Shown here piece after piece: positions 3 through 15,031 of a stretch of 64,000 bases of DNA. Location: contig JAIORD010000057.1 in assembly GCA_021108275.1 (NCBI GenBank), positions 1 to 64,000 on the forward strand, written 5' to 3'. The translations under genes and the position numbers were made by a program. The DNA is from Methanococcoides sp. Its GTDB lineage: Archaea > Halobacteriota > Methanosarcinia > Methanosarcinales > Methanosarcinaceae. The number at the start of each line of letters is the position of its first letter. Positions within the stretch are counted from its first letter, which is position 1. The notes below the pieces were generated by a model. It worked only from the letters and a program-made list of their open reading frames with translations. It was not told the DNA's origin and made no database searches.

Positions 3-1700
3 GGCTCCATTTGGGGTTTTGTAGCTCCTAACATTCTGGCATTGCTTATAATCGCTATTTTTGTCAAGAAGTTCAAGAATCTACCTTCTATCACACAGGC
101 TGAACTTCTCGAACAGAGGTACAGTTCTGCAATACGTGCTCCTGTTGGTATTATTATCACTATCGTCATGATCCTTTTTGCGGTGGCAGATATCAAAGGA
201 TTCGCTCTTGTGTTGCAGATATTCTATGGGGTGGATCCAATATATGCGGCACTTATCGTTGCTCTTGCTGTCTCTGCGTATGTGACCCTTGGTGGTCTCA
301 GTGCGGTAGTATGGACCGATGTTGTGCAGTTCGTTTTCCTTTCCATCTTCGCTCTTGCAATGGCTTTCCTGGCTATCGGGACAGCAACTTCCGGTTCAGC
401 GGATATCTCTTCCGCATCAGACCTGATCTCAACTGTGCCTACTGACTGGTGGAATCCTTTCATCATAGGCATTCCGATGGTGCTTATCTTCGTTTTCGCT
501 ATCATCCCTGGATGGATCACAGAACAGGACCCATGGCAGAAAGTATGGGCAGCTAAAGACTCGAAATCTGCAAGGAATGGTCTTGTACTTGGTTCTTTCC
601 TTGTAACAGTAGTATTCACCGCATGTGCGTTCATTGCTATTGGACTTAACTCACTGTATCCTGAGATATCTGCGATGGGTTTCCCTATGGGAATGGAACA
701 GGCCGAACCTGCACTTCTGACATTCATTGTCGAAACATTCTCACCTGCTGTGATCGGGCTTAGTGCAATTGGTCTTGCAGCAGCATCAATGTCCTGTGCG
801 GATACTTTTGCAACCTCAGGTGCATCATGTGTTTCACGTGATATCTACCAGAGATTTATCAAACCGGATGCTACAATGAAGCAGATGCTCACCATTAACA
901 GACTGAGCGTTCTTTTCATCGTTGCAGCAGCAACAGTTTCCTCGTTCTTCATAAACAGTATTATCGATGCAATTCACATTGCAACGTTCATCGCAAGTGC
1001 ATCCTACTTCTTCCCTCTCATGGGTGGACTTTACTGGAAGCGTGCGACAAAAGAGGGTGCATTGGCGGGTCTTGTTATCGGTGCTGTGGCACAGATATCA
1101 TTTACTGTGTATGACCTTTTAATGACCGCACCTATGGCACCTCCATATCTTGAGACAGTACATCCAATTCTCATGAGCCATGGTGTGATCGTAGGAATGG
1201 GATTGAGTGGACTTGCTTTCTTCGGCGTATCCCTTCTGACAAAGCCATCGAGTGTCATCAATCTTGCTCCGTTCTTCAAGGATGCAGCAGAAGAATTGGC
1301 AAGCCACGATGCACAGAAGGTCGATGATCAGTCCTCTGAATATAAGAATTTCCTCATGAACCTCGATGAACAGATCACCGGGGAACGTGCACACCTTCAT
1401 TTGAGGCTTGAAGCTTCAGCCACAGTGAACTGGAGAAAGTTCGTAGAACAGCTAAAACAGGCTTATCCTGCATGGGTAACTCCTACCGGACTTGATTCTG
1501 TCTACAGGCTCATCCAAGCTGACATGCTTGCCTGTGTTTCTATCACCCGTGGTGAGAATGAAAAGGAGATCTGGTTCGCATCAGAACCACCAGTCGATTC
1601 TGTTGAAATGCAGAAGAGAGAGGTCTTTATTGCATACAAAGAAGTATCAAAAGCTCTCGAAGATGTTGGTATTCTCCTGAGTATTCCGAACGAAGAATAA
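3..1700 (+). CDS. Sodium/solute symporter (SSS family), 5' end cut off by window
   Basis: The reading frame is open from base 3, so the start lies before the window. The visible part is a multi-spanning membrane protein that moves a small organic solute into the cell with Na+. The segment GGLSAVVWTDVVQF (about bases 291-332) fits the SSS family signature, followed by repeated hydrophobic helices up to about base 1240. After the last helix there is a soluble tail of roughly 130 residues (about bases 1300-1697), longer than in simple SSS transporters; its role is unknown. The substrate (proline, pantothenate, betaine or other) cannot be read from this sequence. A strong terminator follows directly. 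Confidence 0.9.
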   Translation, partial: GSIWGFVAPNILALLIIAIFVKKFKNLPSITQAELLEQRYSSAIRAPVGIIITIVMILFAVADIKGFALVLQIFYGVDPIYAALIVALAVSAYVTLGGLSAVVWTDVVQFVFLSIFALAMAFLAIGTATSGSADISSASDLISTVPTDWWNPFIIGIPMVLIFVFAIIPGWITEQDPWQKVWAAKDSKSARNGLVLGSFLVTVVFTACAFIAIGLNSLYPEISAMGFPMGMEQAEPALLTFIVETFSPAVIGLSAIGLAAASMSCADTFATSGASCVSRDIYQRFIKPDATMKQMLTINRLSVLFIVAAATVSSFFINSIIDAIHIATFIASASYFFPLMGGLYWKRATKEGALAGLVIGAVAQISFTVYDLLMTAPMAPPYLETVHPILMSHGVIVGMGLSGLAFFGVSLLTKPSSVINLAPFFKDAAEELASHDAQKVDDQSSEYKNFLMNLDEQITGERAHLHLRLEASATVNWRKFVEQLKQAYPAWVTPTGLDSVYRLIQADMLACVSITRGENEKEIWFASEPPVDSVEMQKREVFIAYKEVSKALEDVGILLSIPNEE

Positions 1701-1714
1701 GCATATTTAGGTCA

Positions 1715-1744
1715 CACTCCCTTTCTGGGAGTGCCTCTTTTTTT
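1715..1744 (+). terminator. Intrinsic terminator after the symporter
   Basis: CACTCCC (1715-1721) pairs with GGGAGTG (1727-1733) around a 5-base loop, followed by a run of T from 1738. Confidence 0.75.
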
Positions 1745-1804
1745 CAACAACCTTTTTTAGTGATGGTGTCCATTATTTTTTGAACAACTTTTGCGATGTG
1801 TATC

Positions 1805-2740
1805 ATGAAAAGATTAGCAATAACATTGGTATTGGTCTTTATTCTTGCAATAATGTCATCAGGTTGCATCAATGAGCTTGCTCCTGTGACTGATAATAAT
1901 GCAACGGTAGAAGCTTCTGATTACGAACTGGAGGTCTTTCATAGTCCTTCCGATAAAAGCGATGATCTGAATACGACAACTTTTTATCTTTCAAGGAACG
2001 GAAGTACGAACGTTGTTTATATGGTGGCAGAAACCTCGGTTATAGAAATCGTTCCAATGGAGGATGTTTTCAATACTGGGGGGGATATTCTTTCCAACGT
2101 TGTTATCCTTGCGGACAGGTCTGAAAACGTTTCCGCTTCAGCCGAGACCTTTGAGATGTTTGCATCATCTTCTTCGGAGGACCTTCCTGTTTTCAACTAT
2201 ACTCTTGAGGATGATGTGATTCGTGGTCAGAAACACTTTGTCATGAAATTCGATGAGAACATTACCGGTATCGTTGCTTTTGCTCTCAATAATCCAAAAG
2301 GGCAGGATTTCATGTATGTTCCCACTCATGATTCAACGGTAAGATTTGTGCTACCCGAAGGTTACACTACCGGCAATCCCTTCGTTGGAAAGGTAATTCC
2401 CGATACAGATGATCGATACATCGATGAACAAGGGCGTGAAGTTCTGGTCTGGTATGACCTTCATGCAAAGTCCGGTACTTTTACAAATATGGCAAGGGAA
2501 TATCTTAAGGTCGAGATATCTGAAGAAGACCTGCCCTACAGGACCGTGATGATAAAGTTCTATTCGGGATCTGCGCCAAAGTTGCTTTTGATAGGTATGA
2601 GCATTCTATTTGGCGGGGTATTGCTGGTACTTGGAAATTACCTCTCCGCAAGAAGGAAACTCCGTAAGGAAAGGAAATCCATTGAAGATGCTTTCATTGA
2701 GAAGAAGGCAGGGGATGGGATGGGCGGAAAGAAAAAGTAA
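1805..2740 (+). CDS. Membrane-anchored lipoprotein, DUF5803-like
   Basis: A signal sequence of hydrophobic residues ends in a lipobox-like SSGC, so the mature protein probably begins with a lipid-modified Cys facing the outside. The body is about 250 residues of beta-rich sequence. Near the C-terminus (about bases 2577-2645) is a single membrane helix (LLLIGMSILFGGVLLVLG), then a basic cytoplasmic tail rich in Lys and Arg. This N-lipid plus C-helix layout fits DUF5803 proteins of methanogens and haloarchaea, recalled from memory. ATG at 1805 is preferred to the in-frame ATG at 1796 because it directly precedes the Lys-Arg of the signal. Function unknown. Confidence 0.75.
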   Translation: MKRLAITLVLVFILAIMSSGCINELAPVTDNNATVEASDYELEVFHSPSDKSDDLNTTTFYLSRNGSTNVVYMVAETSVIEIVPMEDVFNTGGDILSNVVILADRSENVSASAETFEMFASSSSEDLPVFNYTLEDDVIRGQKHFVMKFDENITGIVAFALNNPKGQDFMYVPTHDSTVRFVLPEGYTTGNPFVGKVIPDTDDRYIDEQGREVLVWYDLHAKSGTFTNMAREYLKVEISEEDLPYRTVMIKFYSGSAPKLLLIGMSILFGGVLLVLGNYLSARRKLRKERKSIEDAFIEKKAGDGMGGKKK

Positions 2741-2743
2741 TGA

Positions 2744-3490
2744 TCAAAGGATAAGTTCCATTCCGTCATATCCCAATGGATATGTTTTAACGGCTTCATC
2801 GTGAGGTTTGAAGTAATGGCTTAAATGGGTCATTACAACCTCTTTTGCTTTTATCTTTTCAGCCATTTGCATGGCTTCCTTTGCATCCATGTGTTTCTTT
2901 ACATGGAATCCTACGTCATGGGGTATGATGGCATCCACTATGAAAATATCAGGTTTCTGTATAAGTTCAATGCTTTTTTCAGGTATGTTCTCATCAGTAT
3001 CCCCGCTGATTACCACTTTTTTGTCACCTTCGCATATCATCACTCCGATAGCTTTCTTTGCAGGCGGGTGGTTCACCTCGAAAAGTGTGAACTCCAGTCC
3101 TATAAGTTCAAAGGACGTATTCAGCGGTATGTCATGCCGTTTTGGTTTGAGAAATGAGACATAATCAAGAATATAGTCCAGCGTTTCTGTTACTCCATAG
3201 ACATCCACATTGTACTGGACACGATGGAACTCTCCGAATCCGGTATAATGGTCATAGTGGCCATGTGTCCATATGACACCATCGACATGCTTGAGCCCCT
3301 TTCGCAGCATCTGCTCCCGCATGTCCGGGCTGGTGTCGATCAGGACTTTACCTTTGTCTGATTCCACGAGTATGGAAAACCGAAGACGGTTGCTCTTGGT
3401 TCCCTTTTTTGCATCGATACATGCGGGACAATCACAACCTATGACCGGTGTTCCGGGAGCATCTCCTGTGCCCAGAAGTGTTATCTTCAT
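2744..3490 (-). CDS. MBL-fold metallo-hydrolase, PhnP-like phosphodiesterase
   Basis: A 248-residue metallo-beta-lactamase fold protein. THGHYDHYTG (residues about 75-84) is the metal-binding HxHxDH motif, GDTDEN (about 165) gives the bridging Asp, and MTHLSHYF (about 222) gives the last His. The N-terminus has LGTGDAPGTP followed by GCDCPAC, the Cys cluster that binds an extra zinc in PhnP. PhnP cleaves cyclic phosphodiesters such as 5-phosphoribosyl 1,2-cyclic phosphate; no phosphonate genes lie nearby, so the substrate here is open. Six bases separate it from the upstream AAA ATPase gene, so the two are probably cotranscribed. Confidence 0.85.
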   Translation of the reverse strand: MKITLLGTGDAPGTPVIGCDCPACIDAKKGTKSNRLRFSILVESDKGKVLIDTSPDMREQMLRKGLKHVDGVIWTHGHYDHYTGFGEFHRVQYNVDVYGVTETLDYILDYVSFLKPKRHDIPLNTSFELIGLEFTLFEVNHPPAKKAIGVMICEGDKKVVISGDTDENIPEKSIELIQKPDIFIVDAIIPHDVGFHVKKHMDAKEAMQMAEKIKAKEVVMTHLSHYFKPHDEAVKTYPLGYDGMELIL

Positions 3491-3496
3491 GGAATC

Positions 3497-4789
3497 TCAG
3501 ACGCCTCCCTCATTTACCACATATTCATCGGACTTGATGTTAGCACGTTTGTTGAACTTGAGGACGGCATTGAACAGATCATCCTGTGAGATGACAGTTC
3601 TCTCTTGCACAAGAGCATTGAGTACACTTTCCCGAATGACCATTCTCAGGTCAGAACCGGAGTACCCTTCTGTGAGTGGTGCTATCTCAGCATTGTCGAA
3701 GTCCCCTTCTATGTCCTTGGTCACGATATCCAGAATGGCCTTTCTCATATTCTCGTTTGGTAATGGGAAGTTCATTATTTCATCGAATCTTCTCCATGCA
3801 GCAGAATCCAGCATTCTGGGGTGGTTGGTCGCTGCCATCAGGAGGACTCCATCATTGGTCAGGCTGATGCTATCTATGGCCTTAAGAAGAGTGTTAACAG
3901 CTCTTTTCAATGCAGCATGTTCATCGGATGCCCTTGTCTTTGCAACGAAATCGAACTCATCGATGAAAAGTATGCATGGGCTCAATCGCTTCGCAAGTGA
4001 AAATACTCTATCGATGTTCTTTGCTGTCTCTCCAAGGTATTGATCGGTTATCATGGACAGCCTCACCTCGACAAAAGGTATTGAAAGGCGTTCTGACATT
4101 GCTTTTGCCACGGATGTCTTTCCAGTGCCTGGTGGGCCTACCATCAGGATCTTCCCGATATCATACAAACCTATCTTTTTGAGATGCTCGCGGTACTGTA
4201 TGGCCTTGACTATCTTTTCGATCTCTTCCTTCTGATCTTCTGTAAGGACCATATATCTCATCGGCTGGGCAATATCTTCCGGGGCGATTATTTGCACCAG
4301 CTTAAGCATATCTTCGCCGCCTTCTTCCTCAGATATCTCGCTTATAAGGGACTCTATCCATTCCCTGTCAACTTCCTTTGGTCCGGTTGAAGCTAGTGCC
4401 TTTTTATAATTGGCAGTCTCAGAGTTCTTTTTCTCCTCGTAGTAATATGCCAGGGCCGGGTTCGCATCTATTCTTTCGCCTGCTGACTCCTGTTTATGGA
4501 ACCAGTCTGCTCCCACATCAAAGGAAGTGAACTTTATTTTTGATGTGAGCTCATCGATGTCGATAAAAGGCAATGACAGCACCTGTCCTTTAAGATCTTT
4601 GATGGCAAAAAGCCCCTCAATGTCCTTGCGGGTTACAGTTATAGGCTTTGGCACTCCTTTGTGCGTACGGCTCCAGTAGTTCTTCCTTATGCTCTTTGGA
4701 AGATCATTCACATCCATTTCCGGATATTTGTTGTAGATCTCTGCTGTAAGTAGCAGTTCTATAATGTCAAGTGTGGTCATATCGGACAT
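3497..4789 (-). CDS. AAA+ ATPase, PAN/FtsH-like ATPase domain with unique N-terminal region
   Basis: 430 residues. The N-terminal half (1-200) has no domain I recognise. The C-terminal half is one classical AAA module: Walker A GPPGTGKT (218-225), Walker B ILFIDEFD (about 269-276), an AATNHP sensor-1 region, and arginine fingers in AAWRRFDE, then a helical lid with SGSDLR. The lid and ring residues look like those of proteasome-activating or membrane protease ATPases, but there is no coiled coil, protease domain or HbYX tail, so it may be a remodelling ATPase. It leads a two-gene unit with the PhnP-like hydrolase. Target unknown. Confidence 0.85.
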   Translation of the reverse strand: MSDMTTLDIIELLLTAEIYNKYPEMDVNDLPKSIRKNYWSRTHKGVPKPITVTRKDIEGLFAIKDLKGQVLSLPFIDIDELTSKIKFTSFDVGADWFHKQESAGERIDANPALAYYYEEKKNSETANYKKALASTGPKEVDREWIESLISEISEEEGGEDMLKLVQIIAPEDIAQPMRYMVLTEDQKEEIEKIVKAIQYREHLKKIGLYDIGKILMVGPPGTGKTSVAKAMSERLSIPFVEVRLSMITDQYLGETAKNIDRVFSLAKRLSPCILFIDEFDFVAKTRASDEHAALKRAVNTLLKAIDSISLTNDGVLLMAATNHPRMLDSAAWRRFDEIMNFPLPNENMRKAILDIVTKDIEGDFDNAEIAPLTEGYSGSDLRMVIRESVLNALVQERTVISQDDLFNAVLKFNKRANIKSDEYVVNEGGV

Positions 4790-10269: not shown

Positions 10270-10292
10270 GCAATAAACATCCAGGACCTGAT

Positions 10293-10817
10293 ATGGTAAG
10301 TTCAAATACGGATATCAGAAAAATGGTATATGCCTCGTTATTTGCAGCACTGACCTCTATCGGTGCCTACATCACTGTGCCTCTTGGTCCTATCCCGTTC
10401 ACTCTTCAGATGGTATTCGTTCTGATGGCAGGCGCAATGCTTGGCAGTAAATGGGGTGGGATAAGTATGGTAGTTTATGTTCTTCTCGGTATTGCAGGCT
10501 TGCCCGTATTCTCCAATGGCGGTTCCGGTCTCGGTGTCATCCTTGGTCCTACTGGTGGCTACCTCATAGGCTTCATTGCAGCGGCATTCGTCATTGGTTA
10601 TCTCTTTGAGATGAACCGCAGCAATAATTTATTGAAGAACGGTCTTTTTGTAACGATTGGTTCCGTTGTCATCTTCTGTTTCGGTCTGGCCCATCTGATG
10701 ATAGTTGCAGATATGTCATTCATGCAGGCGGTAACTGTGGGTTTCCTCCCATTCATTCTGCCCGGCATTGTAAAGATCGCAGTTGCAACGGGAATTGCGA
10801 CAAAATACAAAATATGA
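10293..10817 (+). CDS. bioY: BioY, biotin-binding S component of an ECF transporter
   Basis: Hydrophobic protein with about six membrane helices. It contains MVYASLFAALTSIGAYI, then GPIPFTLQMVFVLMAGAMLG and the Gly-rich GGSGLGVILGPTGGY, all typical BioY segments. BioY captures biotin at very low concentration and works with the ATPases and EcfT encoded directly downstream. The frame also has ATGs at 10239 and 10260, but these lie inside the operator and before or at the expected transcription start, so ATG 10293 (174 residues) is preferred. The start remains uncertain. Confidence 0.9.
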   Translation: MVSSNTDIRKMVYASLFAALTSIGAYITVPLGPIPFTLQMVFVLMAGAMLGSKWGGISMVVYVLLGIAGLPVFSNGGSGLGVILGPTGGYLIGFIAAAFVIGYLFEMNRSNNLLKNGLFVTIGSVVIFCFGLAHLMIVADMSFMQAVTVGFLPFILPGIVKIAVATGIATKYKI

Positions 10818-10835
10818 TCTGAAAAAGGTACTCTG

Positions 10836-11645
10836 ATGATAGAGCTAAAGGGTGTAAGTTACAGCTATCCGAATGGTAATAAAGTGCTTGATAATATCGA
10901 TATTCGGATAGAAAAAGGCTCATTCACAACCATTCTTGGGGACAATGGCAGTGGTAAATCCACTCTCATACGTCACATGAACGGGCTTTTGAAGCCTTCT
11001 CAGGGAGTTGTTTCTGTATGTGGGATGGATACTGCATCTCCTGCAGATATCTGGAAAATACGACAAACGGTCGGGATGGTCTTTCAGGACCCTCACTCTC
11101 AGGCAGTGGGCGCAACAGTTGAAGAGGATGTTGCATTCGGCCCTGAGAACCTTGCACTGGAGAGCGATGAGATAAGACTGCTTGTTACAAATGCCATTGC
11201 AAATGTAGGGTTGGAATGTCTTGAAGACTCTCTTCTCATGTCCTTAAGTGGGGGACAATTACAGAAAACAGCGATCGCCGGGGTTCTGGCGATGGTCTCT
11301 GAGGTACTGATATTCGATGAAGTGACTTCCATGCTGGATTCAGATTCACGTTCTCAGATCATTGACATTGTACGGCAGCTCAACAAAAGGGGAAATACCG
11401 TGGTCTATGTGACGCATCATATGGAAGAAGCTTTGTTTGCTAATAGGGTCATCGTACTTGAAAATGGTTCTATTGCAAGTGACGGTACACCTCGGGATGT
11501 ATTTCGTGAGATATATGCATCAGGTAGAAAAGTTCCTCCACATCTGGAACTTGCCTTCAGATTACAGGACGCAGGTATGATCTCCCCTGACGTGTTCCCT
11601 ATGGATGCTTTATCCTTGAAGGAGGAAATATGTCCATCGAGGTGA
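10836..11645 (+). CDS. ecfA1: ECF transporter ATPase subunit 1
   Basis: 269-residue ABC ATPase powering vitamin uptake. Walker A GDNGSGKST (residues about 34-42), Q-loop FQDPHSQ, signature LSGGQLQKTAIAG, Walker B VLIFDEVTSMLD, and the switch His in YVTHHMEEA. The signature and the FDEVTSMLD segment are typical of EcfA/CbiO ATPases. Its end overlaps the next ATPase gene by 16 bases, so the two are translationally coupled. Walker B has E-V in place of the usual E-P, which is common in this family. Confidence 0.9.
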   Translation: MIELKGVSYSYPNGNKVLDNIDIRIEKGSFTTILGDNGSGKSTLIRHMNGLLKPSQGVVSVCGMDTASPADIWKIRQTVGMVFQDPHSQAVGATVEEDVAFGPENLALESDEIRLLVTNAIANVGLECLEDSLLMSLSGGQLQKTAIAGVLAMVSEVLIFDEVTSMLDSDSRSQIIDIVRQLNKRGNTVVYVTHHMEEALFANRVIVLENGSIASDGTPRDVFREIYASGRKVPPHLELAFRLQDAGMISPDVFPMDALSLKEEICPSR

Positions 11646-12448
11646 ATGGGCTGCATTTCTCATATGGGAAAGGAAAAAAAAGGCTCACGATATTGAAGGA
11701 TGTGACCTTTTCAGTGGGTAAAGGTGAGTTTGTCGGTATCATTGGTAACGTTGGTTGTGGCAAGACAACTCTCATCAAGCATCTCAATGGGCTGTTGGTC
11801 CCACTATCTGGAAATGTGACCGTGGACGGGCTTGCATCTTCAAAAAAAGAGGTATGCAGAAAGGTCGGTGTCCTGTTCCAACAGCCTTCAAAACAATTGT
11901 TCTGCAAGACCGTTTTTGAGGATATTGCTTACGGTCCCTCGAATTTTGGTATGAAAGGGGATGAATTGGAACATTGTGTACATGACGCAATTGAAAAAGT
12001 AGGTCTTAGTTCCGATATTCTTGGAAGTTCTCCTTTTAGTCTGAGTGGGGGAGAAATGAGACTTGTGGCCCTTGCCGGTGTTCTTTCATCATCACCTGAC
12101 TATCTGGTCCTTGATGAACCTACATCAGGGCTGAGCACATTCTACAAGGAACGCCTGTTCAGAACACTTGAGCTGCTCAGACAAAATGGTGTGGGTATTG
12201 TGCTGGTCTCCCATCATCTTGAAGATGTTCTCGGTGTGGCTGATAAGATCGTATATCTGAATGAAGGTAAGATGGTCTTTGAGGGTACTCCTGAAGAATA
12301 TCTAAGCTCACTGTCCTTCCCGGCTCCGGAGATTACCGTACTCATGAGGGAATTGAGCTCTTCCGGCCTGGCTGTAAAGAAAACGGTCTTTTCCGTGGAA
12401 GATGCTTTCAATGAGATTGTTGGAGCATTGTCGGAAAAAAGGGGCTGA
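11630..12448 (+). CDS. ecfA2: ECF transporter ATPase subunit 2
   Basis: 272-residue ABC ATPase, partner of the preceding one. Walker A GNVGCGKTT, Q-loop FQQPSKQLF, signature LSGGEMRLVALAG, Walker B YLVLDEPTSGL, and switch His VSHHLEDVL. The start ATG 11630 follows GGAGG at 11621-11625. Two non-identical ATPases fit the Ecf A-A' heterodimer. It runs into ecfT with four bases between the stop codon and the GTG start. Confidence 0.9.
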   Translation: MSIEVNGLHFSYGKGKKRLTILKDVTFSVGKGEFVGIIGNVGCGKTTLIKHLNGLLVPLSGNVTVDGLASSKKEVCRKVGVLFQQPSKQLFCKTVFEDIAYGPSNFGMKGDELEHCVHDAIEKVGLSSDILGSSPFSLSGGEMRLVALAGVLSSSPDYLVLDEPTSGLSTFYKERLFRTLELLRQNGVGIVLVSHHLEDVLGVADKIVYLNEGKMVFEGTPEEYLSSLSFPAPEITVLMRELSSSGLAVKKTVFSVEDAFNEIVGALSEKRG

Positions 12449-12452
12449 TCAG

Positions 12453-13220
12453 GTGGAAGGTTTCTTATTCTCCTATGTTGCAGGCAAGTCTGTCCTTCAC
12501 GGACTTGATCCGCGTGTCAAGATATTATCGGTAATGTGTCTAAGTATTCTCATATTCAGATCATCTACTCTTGTTGATCTCCTCGTATTTGCATTGCTTT
12601 TTGTAGGGCTTACTATCCTCGCAGGTTCCGGGTTATCAGGCATAAGGTCGGTCCGGCCGTTGTTACCTATCTTTGTCTTTATTTTCCTGATCCATTCCTT
12701 CTTCACCGAAGGTGCGGCTTTGTTCAATTCTCAATTCTCACCAACCTATGAGGGGTTTTTGAAAGGTTCGTTGGTCACCGTAAGGTTCGTCCTCTTAATT
12801 CTCTATGGATCTTTGCTGACCTCGACCACAAGACCGGTGGTGATAACTGCCGGGATAGAAAGAATACTTCGTCCGCTTCCTTTGAGGCGGGTGGGTGTGA
12901 CCTCTTTCGAGATAGCGACTATGATGTCTCTAGCCATTTATTTTGTGCCTCATCTGTTGTGGTATGCGGGGCAGGTAAAGGATTCTCAGTTGTCGCGTGG
13001 TTCTAAGTACAGGCGTGATCCCATATCTGGGACCCTTTCGCTTGCAATACCGGTATTGAAAGGTTCCATGAGAATGGCCGATGATGTGGCCATGGCAATG
13101 GAAAGCAGGTGCTATCAGGGAAATTTTCGTACCTCTTTGTTCGAGCTGAAAATGACCGCACGTGATGTTCTGGTCTGTTCGGTCGTTCTGGGTGTGACGG
13201 CATTAGTATTATATGCATGA
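12453..13220 (+). CDS. ecfT: EcfT, transmembrane energy-coupling subunit
   Basis: The GTG at 12453 begins VEGFLFSYVAGKSVLHGLDPRVKIL, the usual EcfT opening; upstream residues in the same frame overlap ecfA2 and look unrelated. The protein has 255 residues with several helices and coupling-helix motifs ERILRPLPLRRVG and, near the end, MADDVAMAMESRCY (the A-x-x-x-R-C type signature). It joins BioY to the two ATPases. The stop codon lies inside the arsR operator, so the next unit starts immediately. Confidence 0.88.
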   Translation: MEGFLFSYVAGKSVLHGLDPRVKILSVMCLSILIFRSSTLVDLLVFALLFVGLTILAGSGLSGIRSVRPLLPIFVFIFLIHSFFTEGAALFNSQFSPTYEGFLKGSLVTVRFVLLILYGSLLTSTTRPVVITAGIERILRPLPLRRVGVTSFEIATMMSLAIYFVPHLLWYAGQVKDSQLSRGSKYRRDPISGTLSLAIPVLKGSMRMADDVAMAMESRCYQGNFRTSLFELKMTARDVLVCSVVLGVTALVLYA

Positions 13221-13243
13221 GCATATGTTCATATGTTCATGCA
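13214..13243 (+). promoter_or_regulatory. 30-bp ArsR/SmtB-type operator overlapping the arsR start
   Basis: TGCATGAGCATATG (13214-13227), centre TT, then CATATGTTCATGCA (13230-13243). The arms match at 13 of 14 positions. This is the long inverted repeat with a 2-base centre typical of ArsR/SmtB operators. A TATA-like TATTATAT lies at 13207-13214, so repressor binding would cover the start site and the first codons of arsR. Confidence 0.7.
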
Positions 13244-13595
13244 AGACGATGCTTCCTGTGAGCGTGTTGATAAAGATGCCATTGATGCGATAGTCTCCCA
13301 TCTTCCAGATGAGGATGCTATACTGAGGCTATCCAATATATTCCATGCTTTACGATCGGAACCTCGATTAACAACACTGTACCTTCTCCTTGAGAAGGAC
13401 ATGTGTGTATGTGAACTGGAACATGCCCTGGGGATGACCCAATCTGCCATTTCTCACAATCTTCGTACCCTTCGCCAGCTTGACCTTGTCAGGGTCAGGA
13501 AAGACGGGCGTTTTGCAGTTTATTCAGTTGCTGATGAGCACGTAAGAGCACTGCTCGAGCTATCCCGCAGTCACGTTGTGGGGTGTGTTCAATGA
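13239..13595 (+). CDS. arsR: ArsR-family metal(loid)-responsive repressor
   Basis: About 118-residue winged-helix repressor. Helix alpha-3 carries KDMCVCELEHAL, which matches the CVC thiolate motif of As(III)/Sb(III)-sensing ArsR proteins; Cd, Zn or Cu sensing is also possible. The recognition helix is MTQSAISHNLRTLRQ, and the wing is VRKDGRFAVYSV. ATGs at 13233 and 13239 are both possible; 13239 is preferred since the TATA box predicts initiation near 13235 (near-leaderless mRNA). The stop codon overlaps the start of the permease gene as ATGA, so the two form an operon under self-repression. Confidence 0.87.
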   Translation: MQDDASCERVDKDAIDAIVSHLPDEDAILRLSNIFHALRSEPRLTTLYLLLEKDMCVCELEHALGMTQSAISHNLRTLRQLDLVRVRKDGRFAVYSVADEHVRALLELSRSHVVGCVQ

Positions 13596-14728
13596 CCTAC
13601 CTGGAAACCATTCTGGAGGTACTCATTGGTATCGGCTTGAGTTCCTGGAACGTCCTTGCAGAAGCAGCACCTTATCTTTTACTGGGATTTGGAGTTGCAG
13701 GGATTTTGCATGTCTTTGTACCGGATGAAAAGATAATGCAATATCTGGGCCATTCCGCCGGGAAGTTCCGTTCAGTACTGAATGCTTCACTGATCGGTGT
13801 GCCTCTGCCGTTATGTTCCTGTGGGGTGGTCCCTGCAGCACTGTCCTTGAAAAAAAAAGGTGCAACAAATGGGGCAACCCTGTCTTTTTTGATATCCACT
13901 CCTCAGACAGGTGTGGATTCCATAGCCATCACATACGCCCTTCTTGATCCCATAATGACAATCTTCCGGCCGATCGCGACTTTCATTACTGCATTGGTGG
14001 CAGGGATCGCCGAAGACCTTCTACGCTCTCCTCGGGATGTTTCAGGCAAAAATGTTGAAAAAAGACCGACAACCAGTATATTGGAAATGGCTGCGTTACC
14101 TACACCCTCATCCTCTCTTTCCTCCTCATGCAGTTGCAACTCCTGTGGGTCTACGGGAACTGAAGATACTGATACCTTTTCCGGAAGGGTCATCTCCGGT
14201 ATCAGGTATGCATACGTGGAACTTCTTGGGGACATAAGCTACTGGCTTATCATTGGTATTGTTCTTGCAGGTATCATCACATATCTGGTACCTGAAAATC
14301 TCGTTGGTTCCCATCTTGGAGGGGGTCTGGTCTCGATGCTCCTTGCACTTGTTGTAGGTATTCCCCTTTACATCTGTGCGACCGCTTCGACCCCTCTCGC
14401 AGCGGTTCTTATTGCAAAGGGCATGAGTCCCGGGGCAGCGTTCGTTTTCCTGTTAGCAGGGCCTGCAACGAATGCAGCTACTATTACAATGGTCCTGAAG
14501 TATCTGGGCAGGAGGTCGACAGGTGTTTATCTGGCTTCAATTGCAGTTTGTGCAGTTGCGGGAGGTCTGCTTCTTGATATGGTCTATTCATATATGGGTA
14601 TTGACTCTTTGTCGATAGTCGGAAGTGCGAGGGATGTCATGCCCGAAGATGTGAAGACCGGGTTTGCACTGTTGTTACTTCCGTTGATGGCATATGGGAT
14701 ATATCATCAGAAAAAGTGTGGTGATTGA
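13592..14728 (+). CDS. Metal efflux permease, SO_0444 / COG0701 family
   Basis: 378 residues, about eight to ten membrane helices. The motif PLPLCSCGVVPAALSLKKKG with LISTPQTGVDSI is the hallmark of the SO_0444-type Cu/Zn efflux group within COG0701 (a family that also includes ArsP). The second half repeats the pattern with TASTPLAAVLIAKG and GPATNAAT. Between the halves is a Ser/Cys-rich loop with CSCNSC (14129-14146) that could bind soft metals. ATG 13592 overlaps the arsR stop (ATGA). Substrate metal cannot be fixed from sequence. Confidence 0.88.
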   Translation: MTYLETILEVLIGIGLSSWNVLAEAAPYLLLGFGVAGILHVFVPDEKIMQYLGHSAGKFRSVLNASLIGVPLPLCSCGVVPAALSLKKKGATNGATLSFLISTPQTGVDSIAITYALLDPIMTIFRPIATFITALVAGIAEDLLRSPRDVSGKNVEKRPTTSILEMAALPTPSSSLSSSCSCNSCGSTGTEDTDTFSGRVISGIRYAYVELLGDISYWLIIGIVLAGIITYLVPENLVGSHLGGGLVSMLLALVVGIPLYICATASTPLAAVLIAKGMSPGAAFVFLLAGPATNAATITMVLKYLGRRSTGVYLASIAVCAVAGGLLLDMVYSYMGIDSLSIVGSARDVMPEDVKTGFALLLLPLMAYGIYHQKKCGD

Positions 14729-15031
14729 TGTTCGTCACTCTTTTTTAGAATGGTGGTCGGATAATATCAATATATTTATGAAAATATGTTCGAGGCAATC
14801 TTGGGCCTTGATCCTTAAAGGCCTAATATAAGAGTTAAAAAATGGCATAAGGTCTATATCTAAAAACAGATTATCTCTTTTTAATGTCTTCTGATTCGGT
14901 TTTTCAAAGTTAACAGTGATATGCAAATACGATACACTTAAGTACTGTTATTTTTTCTTTATCAATAGTTTTGGTTATATTAGCCTAAGTGAACAAAAAC
15001 TTTCATTTATAACATAAAGGAGTCATTTTGA
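14729..15031 (+). other. Intergenic region before hyuA
   Basis: AT-rich spacer of 303 bases. It contains a T-rich end after the permease, a GGCCTT/AAGGCC hairpin near 14804-14823, and a TATA-like GGTTATATTA near 14972-14981 with a GGAG ribosome site near 15020 for the next gene. No gene is seen; a 63-codon minus-strand frame here has no recognisable features. Confidence 0.5.

Follow-up and report, generated by a model that had tools for sequence, protein, structure and literature searches.

A conserved, probably autoregulatory ArsR/SmtB-type operator at the start codon of a metal-efflux regulator gene in methanogens

The window, a stretch of 64,000 nucleotides from Methanococcoides sp., contains a long inverted repeat at the point where the last gene of a biotin-transporter operon gives way to a gene for an ArsR-type regulator. 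Which of the two neighbours does this element serve, and what is its functional unit? The genes concerned lie in the order bioY, two ECF ATPases, ecfT, an ArsR/SmtB regulator and a permease. The ecfT gene (CbiQ family; 12453–13220, forward strand, GTG start assumed) matches PF02361 (E 2.1e-32) and is the end gene of the bioY-ecfA-ecfA-ecfT operon. The regulator gene, arsR (13239–13595, forward strand; NF033788, 87.5 bits against a cut-off of 55), has a conserved ATG at 13239–13241 and a second in-frame ATG at 13233, and the regulators in named Methanococcoides records are 95–98% identical to that of the window. Its stop codon is overlapped (ATGA) by the start of a gene for an SO_0444 family Cu/Zn efflux permease (13592–14728, forward strand; NCBIfam equivalog NF033936, 423 bits, cut-off 300; PF03773), and a T6 run read from the sequence 3' of the permease (14741–14746, forward strand) may be an archaeal terminator. 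The order ecfT, arsR, SO_0444 permease is found in 31 of 37 orthologous loci, though in the window (10290–14728) the ecf genes begin with bioY. Displaced or broken frames make the permease gaps unreliable in loci L055 and L056, and the end of arsR likewise in L056.

The first-pass annotation had described a 14-2-14 inverted repeat overlapping the ecfT stop codon, the arsR promoter and the first arsR codons, and such a repeat is indeed present at 13214–13243 and overlaps all three. Its 14-bp arms (13214–13227 and 13230–13243) pair at 13 of 14 positions (93% complementary) around a 2-nt centre, with the axis between 13228 and 13229 (axis B). It spans the ecfT stop TGA and the arsR start ATG together with two bases of codon 2, and also takes in the final bases of a TATA-like stretch at about 13208–13215. 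The window has two repeats that reach this standard (arms of 14 bp with 13 or more pairs, gap 0–6), whereas 30 Markov-1 simulations gave 0.13 on average and 2 at most.

The TATA-like stretch forms part of a candidate promoter. The region from −34 to −24 relative to the arsR ATG (13205–13215, forward strand) has a conserved A at −34 and is A/T-rich from −30 to −24, features that fit a BRE/TATA promoter from which transcription would start at the arsR start codon. The spacing is of the leaderless type, only one of the 84 loci shows a Shine–Dalgarno-like motif, and the arsR transcript is probably leaderless, its start being predicted from the sequence. In M. acetivorans the mapped start of msvR lies 27 nt downstream of the centre of its TATA box (PMC3729527). 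In Methanolobus psychrophilus BRE/TATA elements lie about 19–22 nt from the start, and a minority of transcripts, about 16%, lack a leader (PMC5378194).

Comparison of orthologous loci moves the main site away from the 14-2-14 unit, for which that role had been claimed, to a more conserved 16-bp core that has its axis 4 bp upstream and the TGAA-N6-TTCA spacing of SmtB/ArsR sites. In the window this core reads ATGAGC-ATAT-GTTCAT (13217–13232), with its axis between 13224 and 13225 (axis A). Of the 85 orthologous loci compared, 84, from 11 genera, have a core of consensus ATGAAC-N4-GTTCAT at an invariant −22 to −7 relative to the start of arsR, its position being counted from the matching aligned place in nine loci with a displaced start codon; L122, the sole locus in which no core was found, is left out of the counts over 84 loci. 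The comparison was made on 37 loci first and then on 85. L057 and L058 (more distant regulators) and L059–L062 (other families of the order) were kept out of the set of 37, L019 among the 85 belongs to another family of the order, and eight of the 92 family genomes with a match were not used as they have only distant copies. As the scoring matrix was built from the first 37 loci, the further 48 provide a fair test, and 47 of these carry the core. Conservation at a fixed distance supports the claim of an ArsR-type autorepressor site at the arsR promoter and start codon.

When symmetry is scored over every axis, the genus-mean values (of 12 pairs) are 9.52 for axis A, 8.91 for axis B and 5.97 for the next best, and in the aligned sequences the most conserved dyad is axis A. 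In the window itself axis B is the best palindrome, with 10 of 12 pairs against 8 of 12 at axis A, since the left half-site in the window's genus is ATGAG in nine of 11 loci and ATGAA in two, which weakens the symmetry at axis A. Column information is near 2 bits at most half-site positions, compared with 0.1–0.6 bits for most columns outside. The pattern formed by the core and a third half-site, described below, is found with three mismatches or fewer in 88 of 111 family genomes, and the reversed-pattern control in 3 of 111. Axis A widens to a 12-2-12 repeat in relatives such as L015, and the bacterial relatives L047 and L048 have TGAA-N6-TTCA directly upstream of their own arsR gene. An imperfect inverted repeat of the 12-2-12 type at the controlled promoter, as expected of ArsR/SmtB metalloregulators, is found at this locus; SmtB/ArsR proteins bind 12-2-12 repeats near transcription starts (PMC8790569). 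The region of the inverted repeat is conserved and is probably an autoregulatory operator of a familiar type. Searches of the open-licence literature found no paper on it.

Further copies were sought in the same genome. A 22-mer search allowing up to three mismatches gave one occurrence, and the one other core site with a single mismatch (C7:72843) has no convincing gene start adjoining it. Core sites with three mismatches number 110 against 40 in the control, which is not far above noise, and no wider regulon is therefore claimed. In two genomes of genus g7 the core recurs ahead of the gene for a second ArsR, and a gene for a heavy-metal P-type ATPase comes next, an assignment made by ATPase models on the protein of L136 alone. 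The core lies at 3933–3948 of L136, with arsR at 3537–3890 and the ATPase at 1135–3510, and at 768–783 of L137. As the paralog shares the operator core, cross-talk between the two regulators is possible.

The 14-2-14 palindrome arises from a putative third half-site, TTCAT (13236–13240, forward strand), which sits 8 bp further downstream than the second and includes the AT of the arsR start codon. TTCAT is found at this place in 67 of 84 loci, compared with 68 of 84 at the second half-site; overall the third half-site is more loosely conserved than the core and is frequently altered in genus g4. Among the nine loci whose start codon lies elsewhere, seven still have TTCAT here, which are not seven independent events because the loci are related, and all nine keep the T at +2 that is no longer part of a start codon. 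Retention of TTCAT away from the start codon suggests a DNA element rather than mere start-codon context.

A promoter element could account for much of this as well, with the TTC ahead of the start codon acting as an initiator and not as a third ArsR half-site, a reading that falls somewhat short of an even chance. The TTC lies exactly at the predicted start point, where C at −1 and A at +1 form a pyrimidine–purine step, displacement of the start codon need not have moved the presumed start point, and the third half-site is missing from the paralogous operators of L136 and L137. However, among the five leaderless-looking starts in the window, a very small sample, only that of arsR has TTC, and the bases are identical to the TTCAT of the second half-site, down to the T at +2. 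If the third half-site is an ArsR site, the three half-sites would form two overlapping registers with axes 4 bp apart, the third taking in the start codon of a leaderless gene. It is a tentative suggestion, more doubtful than the initiator, that ArsR could take two alternative or successive positions on them, one blocking promoter assembly and one on the start point, to give a graded switch. No description of a graded two-register switch for the ArsR/SmtB family was found in the portions of the open-licence literature searched. The half-site at the start codon is the only new twist in a system that is otherwise ordinary.

The special role proposed for the site at the end of the biotin-transporter operon finds no support in comparison with other genera. 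The ecfT gene is upstream of arsR in 31 of the 37 loci and absent from six. In all 11 loci of the window's genus the ecfT stop is embedded in the operator at a distance of 18 nt from the start of arsR, its TGA (13218–13220, forward strand) falling within the left half-site. In the 20 ecfT-linked loci of other genera the stop is 32–396 nt upstream and outside the core in every case, and the place of the operator relative to arsR is constant. The operator therefore serves arsR and not the ecf operon, and its conservation cannot be due to a role in ecfT read-through. As the overlap with the stop codon is limited to the window's genus, it is most simply read from these alignments as a lineage-specific result of compaction. 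Read-through from ecfT into arsR is plausible in this genus, since no T-run lies between the two genes, and a bound repressor might hinder it. A model in which the 14-2-14 palindrome itself serves as main operator, with bound ArsR also forming a roadblock that limits read-through from the biotin-transporter operon, is unlikely. The prominence of axis B in the window, its own conservation and the short distance from ecfT to arsR would all agree with this, but axis A is at least equally conserved and has the known SmtB/ArsR spacing, and the operator is unchanged where ecfT is distant or absent. Less probable still is a role as RNA, in which a hairpin in ecfT read-through transcripts would mask the arsR start codon and leave the leaderless transcript as the only one translated: the predicted 13-bp stem does contain the AUG, but its folding energy betters that of shuffled sequences only modestly (z −1.72; 12 of 200 as good), the element persists at loci that have no nearby ecfT, and no paired changes across the dyad are seen by eye in the listed loci of the 85-locus comparison.

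The preferred reading, for which the case is strong, is that the core serves a CadC/SmtB-like metal sensor as an autoregulatory operator for the arsR–SO_0444 unit; conservation, position, symmetry, gene order and family assignment all argue for it. An ArsR dimer would bind ATGAGC-N4-GTTCAT, between the TATA box and a start site predicted to coincide with the arsR start codon or adjoin it, and would thereby bar TBP/TFB or RNA polymerase from starting the arsR–SO_0444 transcript. Archaeal repressors that block TBP/TFB or the polymerase have been described (PMC3729527). Binding of a soft divalent metal (Cd, Zn, Pb or Cu) at a Cys site (C7, C56, C58) and/or an alpha-5 site (D99, H101, H112) would free ArsR from the DNA, and the efflux permease would then be made. 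The third half-site would probably strengthen occupancy or extend it over the start point.

The sensor protein has the ArsR HTH and belongs to the metalloregulator subfamily by its NF033788 score and by PF01022 (48.7 bits, cut-off 22), and the solved structures that match it best are those of CadC (1u2w, E 6.5e-16) and SmtB (E 1.7e-15). Ligand residues of both the alpha-3N Cys set and the alpha-5 DxHx10H motif are present: among 82 aligned orthologs (L135, with 11 readable residues, being left out) C7 is found in 82, C56 in 80, C58 in 55, D99 in 80, H101 in 78 and H112 in 77. The alpha-5 motif of the family is given as DxHx10Hx2E (PMC8790569). Its fourth ligand is Glu in 67 of the 82 overall and Gly or Arg in 11 of 11 loci of the window's genus (window 13572–13586, residues 112–116). 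C58, the second Cys of the CxC motif, is replaced by Lys or Arg in 24 of 24 loci of genus g4 and by Thr in three of three of g14, and both H101 and H112 are lost in two of two of g6; with different losses in different genera, the two possible metal sites erode separately.

In ArsR proteins of the As(III) type the CxC is followed three residues on by a further alpha-3 Cys, the third of the set, and ars genes lie alongside. The protein examined for this, that of the window, has Glu at that place (DMCVCELEHAL) and a partner of the SO_0444 family, and an As(III)-responsive ArsR was rejected; none of the seven genes tested between 10290 and 16960 is arsB, arsC or acr3. Identity with MsvR was likewise rejected (NCBIfam MsvR model, 20.9 bits against a cut-off of 220). 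From the list of metals put forward by the first-pass annotation, Cd, Zn and Cu are favoured, and As(III) is disfavoured since the partner permease is a Cu/Zn exporter. A CadC/SmtB-like protein with such a partner makes a soft divalent metal (Cd, Zn, Pb or Cu) the likelier signal by family resemblance. Shewanella depends on SO_0444 for its tolerance of Zn and Cu (PMC3219624), and a relative in Nitratiruptor is induced by Cd and Cu (PMC10092412).

The locus thus offers a precise predicted operator for a metal-efflux switch, conserved across a methanogen family. It suggests use of the bacterial SmtB/ArsR operator core on a TATA promoter of archaeal type, and it shows that, once intergenic space is lost, one operator can provide both the stop codon of a neighbouring gene and the start codon of its own. 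The 12-2-12 operators of bacterial SmtB, CadC, AztR and ZiaR similarly have a TGAA-N6-TTCA core and A/T-rich arms by the transcription start, upstream of a sensor and an efflux gene. Here, in contrast, the promoter is of the archaeal BRE/TATA type, the outer arms fall on the TATA box and on the start codon, and an extra TTCAT half-site lies 8 bp downstream. In methanogens MsvR is likewise a regulator with an ArsR-like HTH that represses its own short-leader promoter near the BRE/TATA; however, the MsvR boxes are TTCG-N7-9-CGAA, lie upstream of the TATA box in M. acetivorans, and the response is to redox state (PMC3729527). In Shewanella oneidensis SO_0443–SO_0444 an SO_0444-family Cu/Zn efflux permease is also placed under a metal regulator encoded next to it, but that regulator is ZntR-like (PMC3219624), whereas here it is of the ArsR/SmtB family. 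The type of switch is familiar, and its placement is unusually compact.
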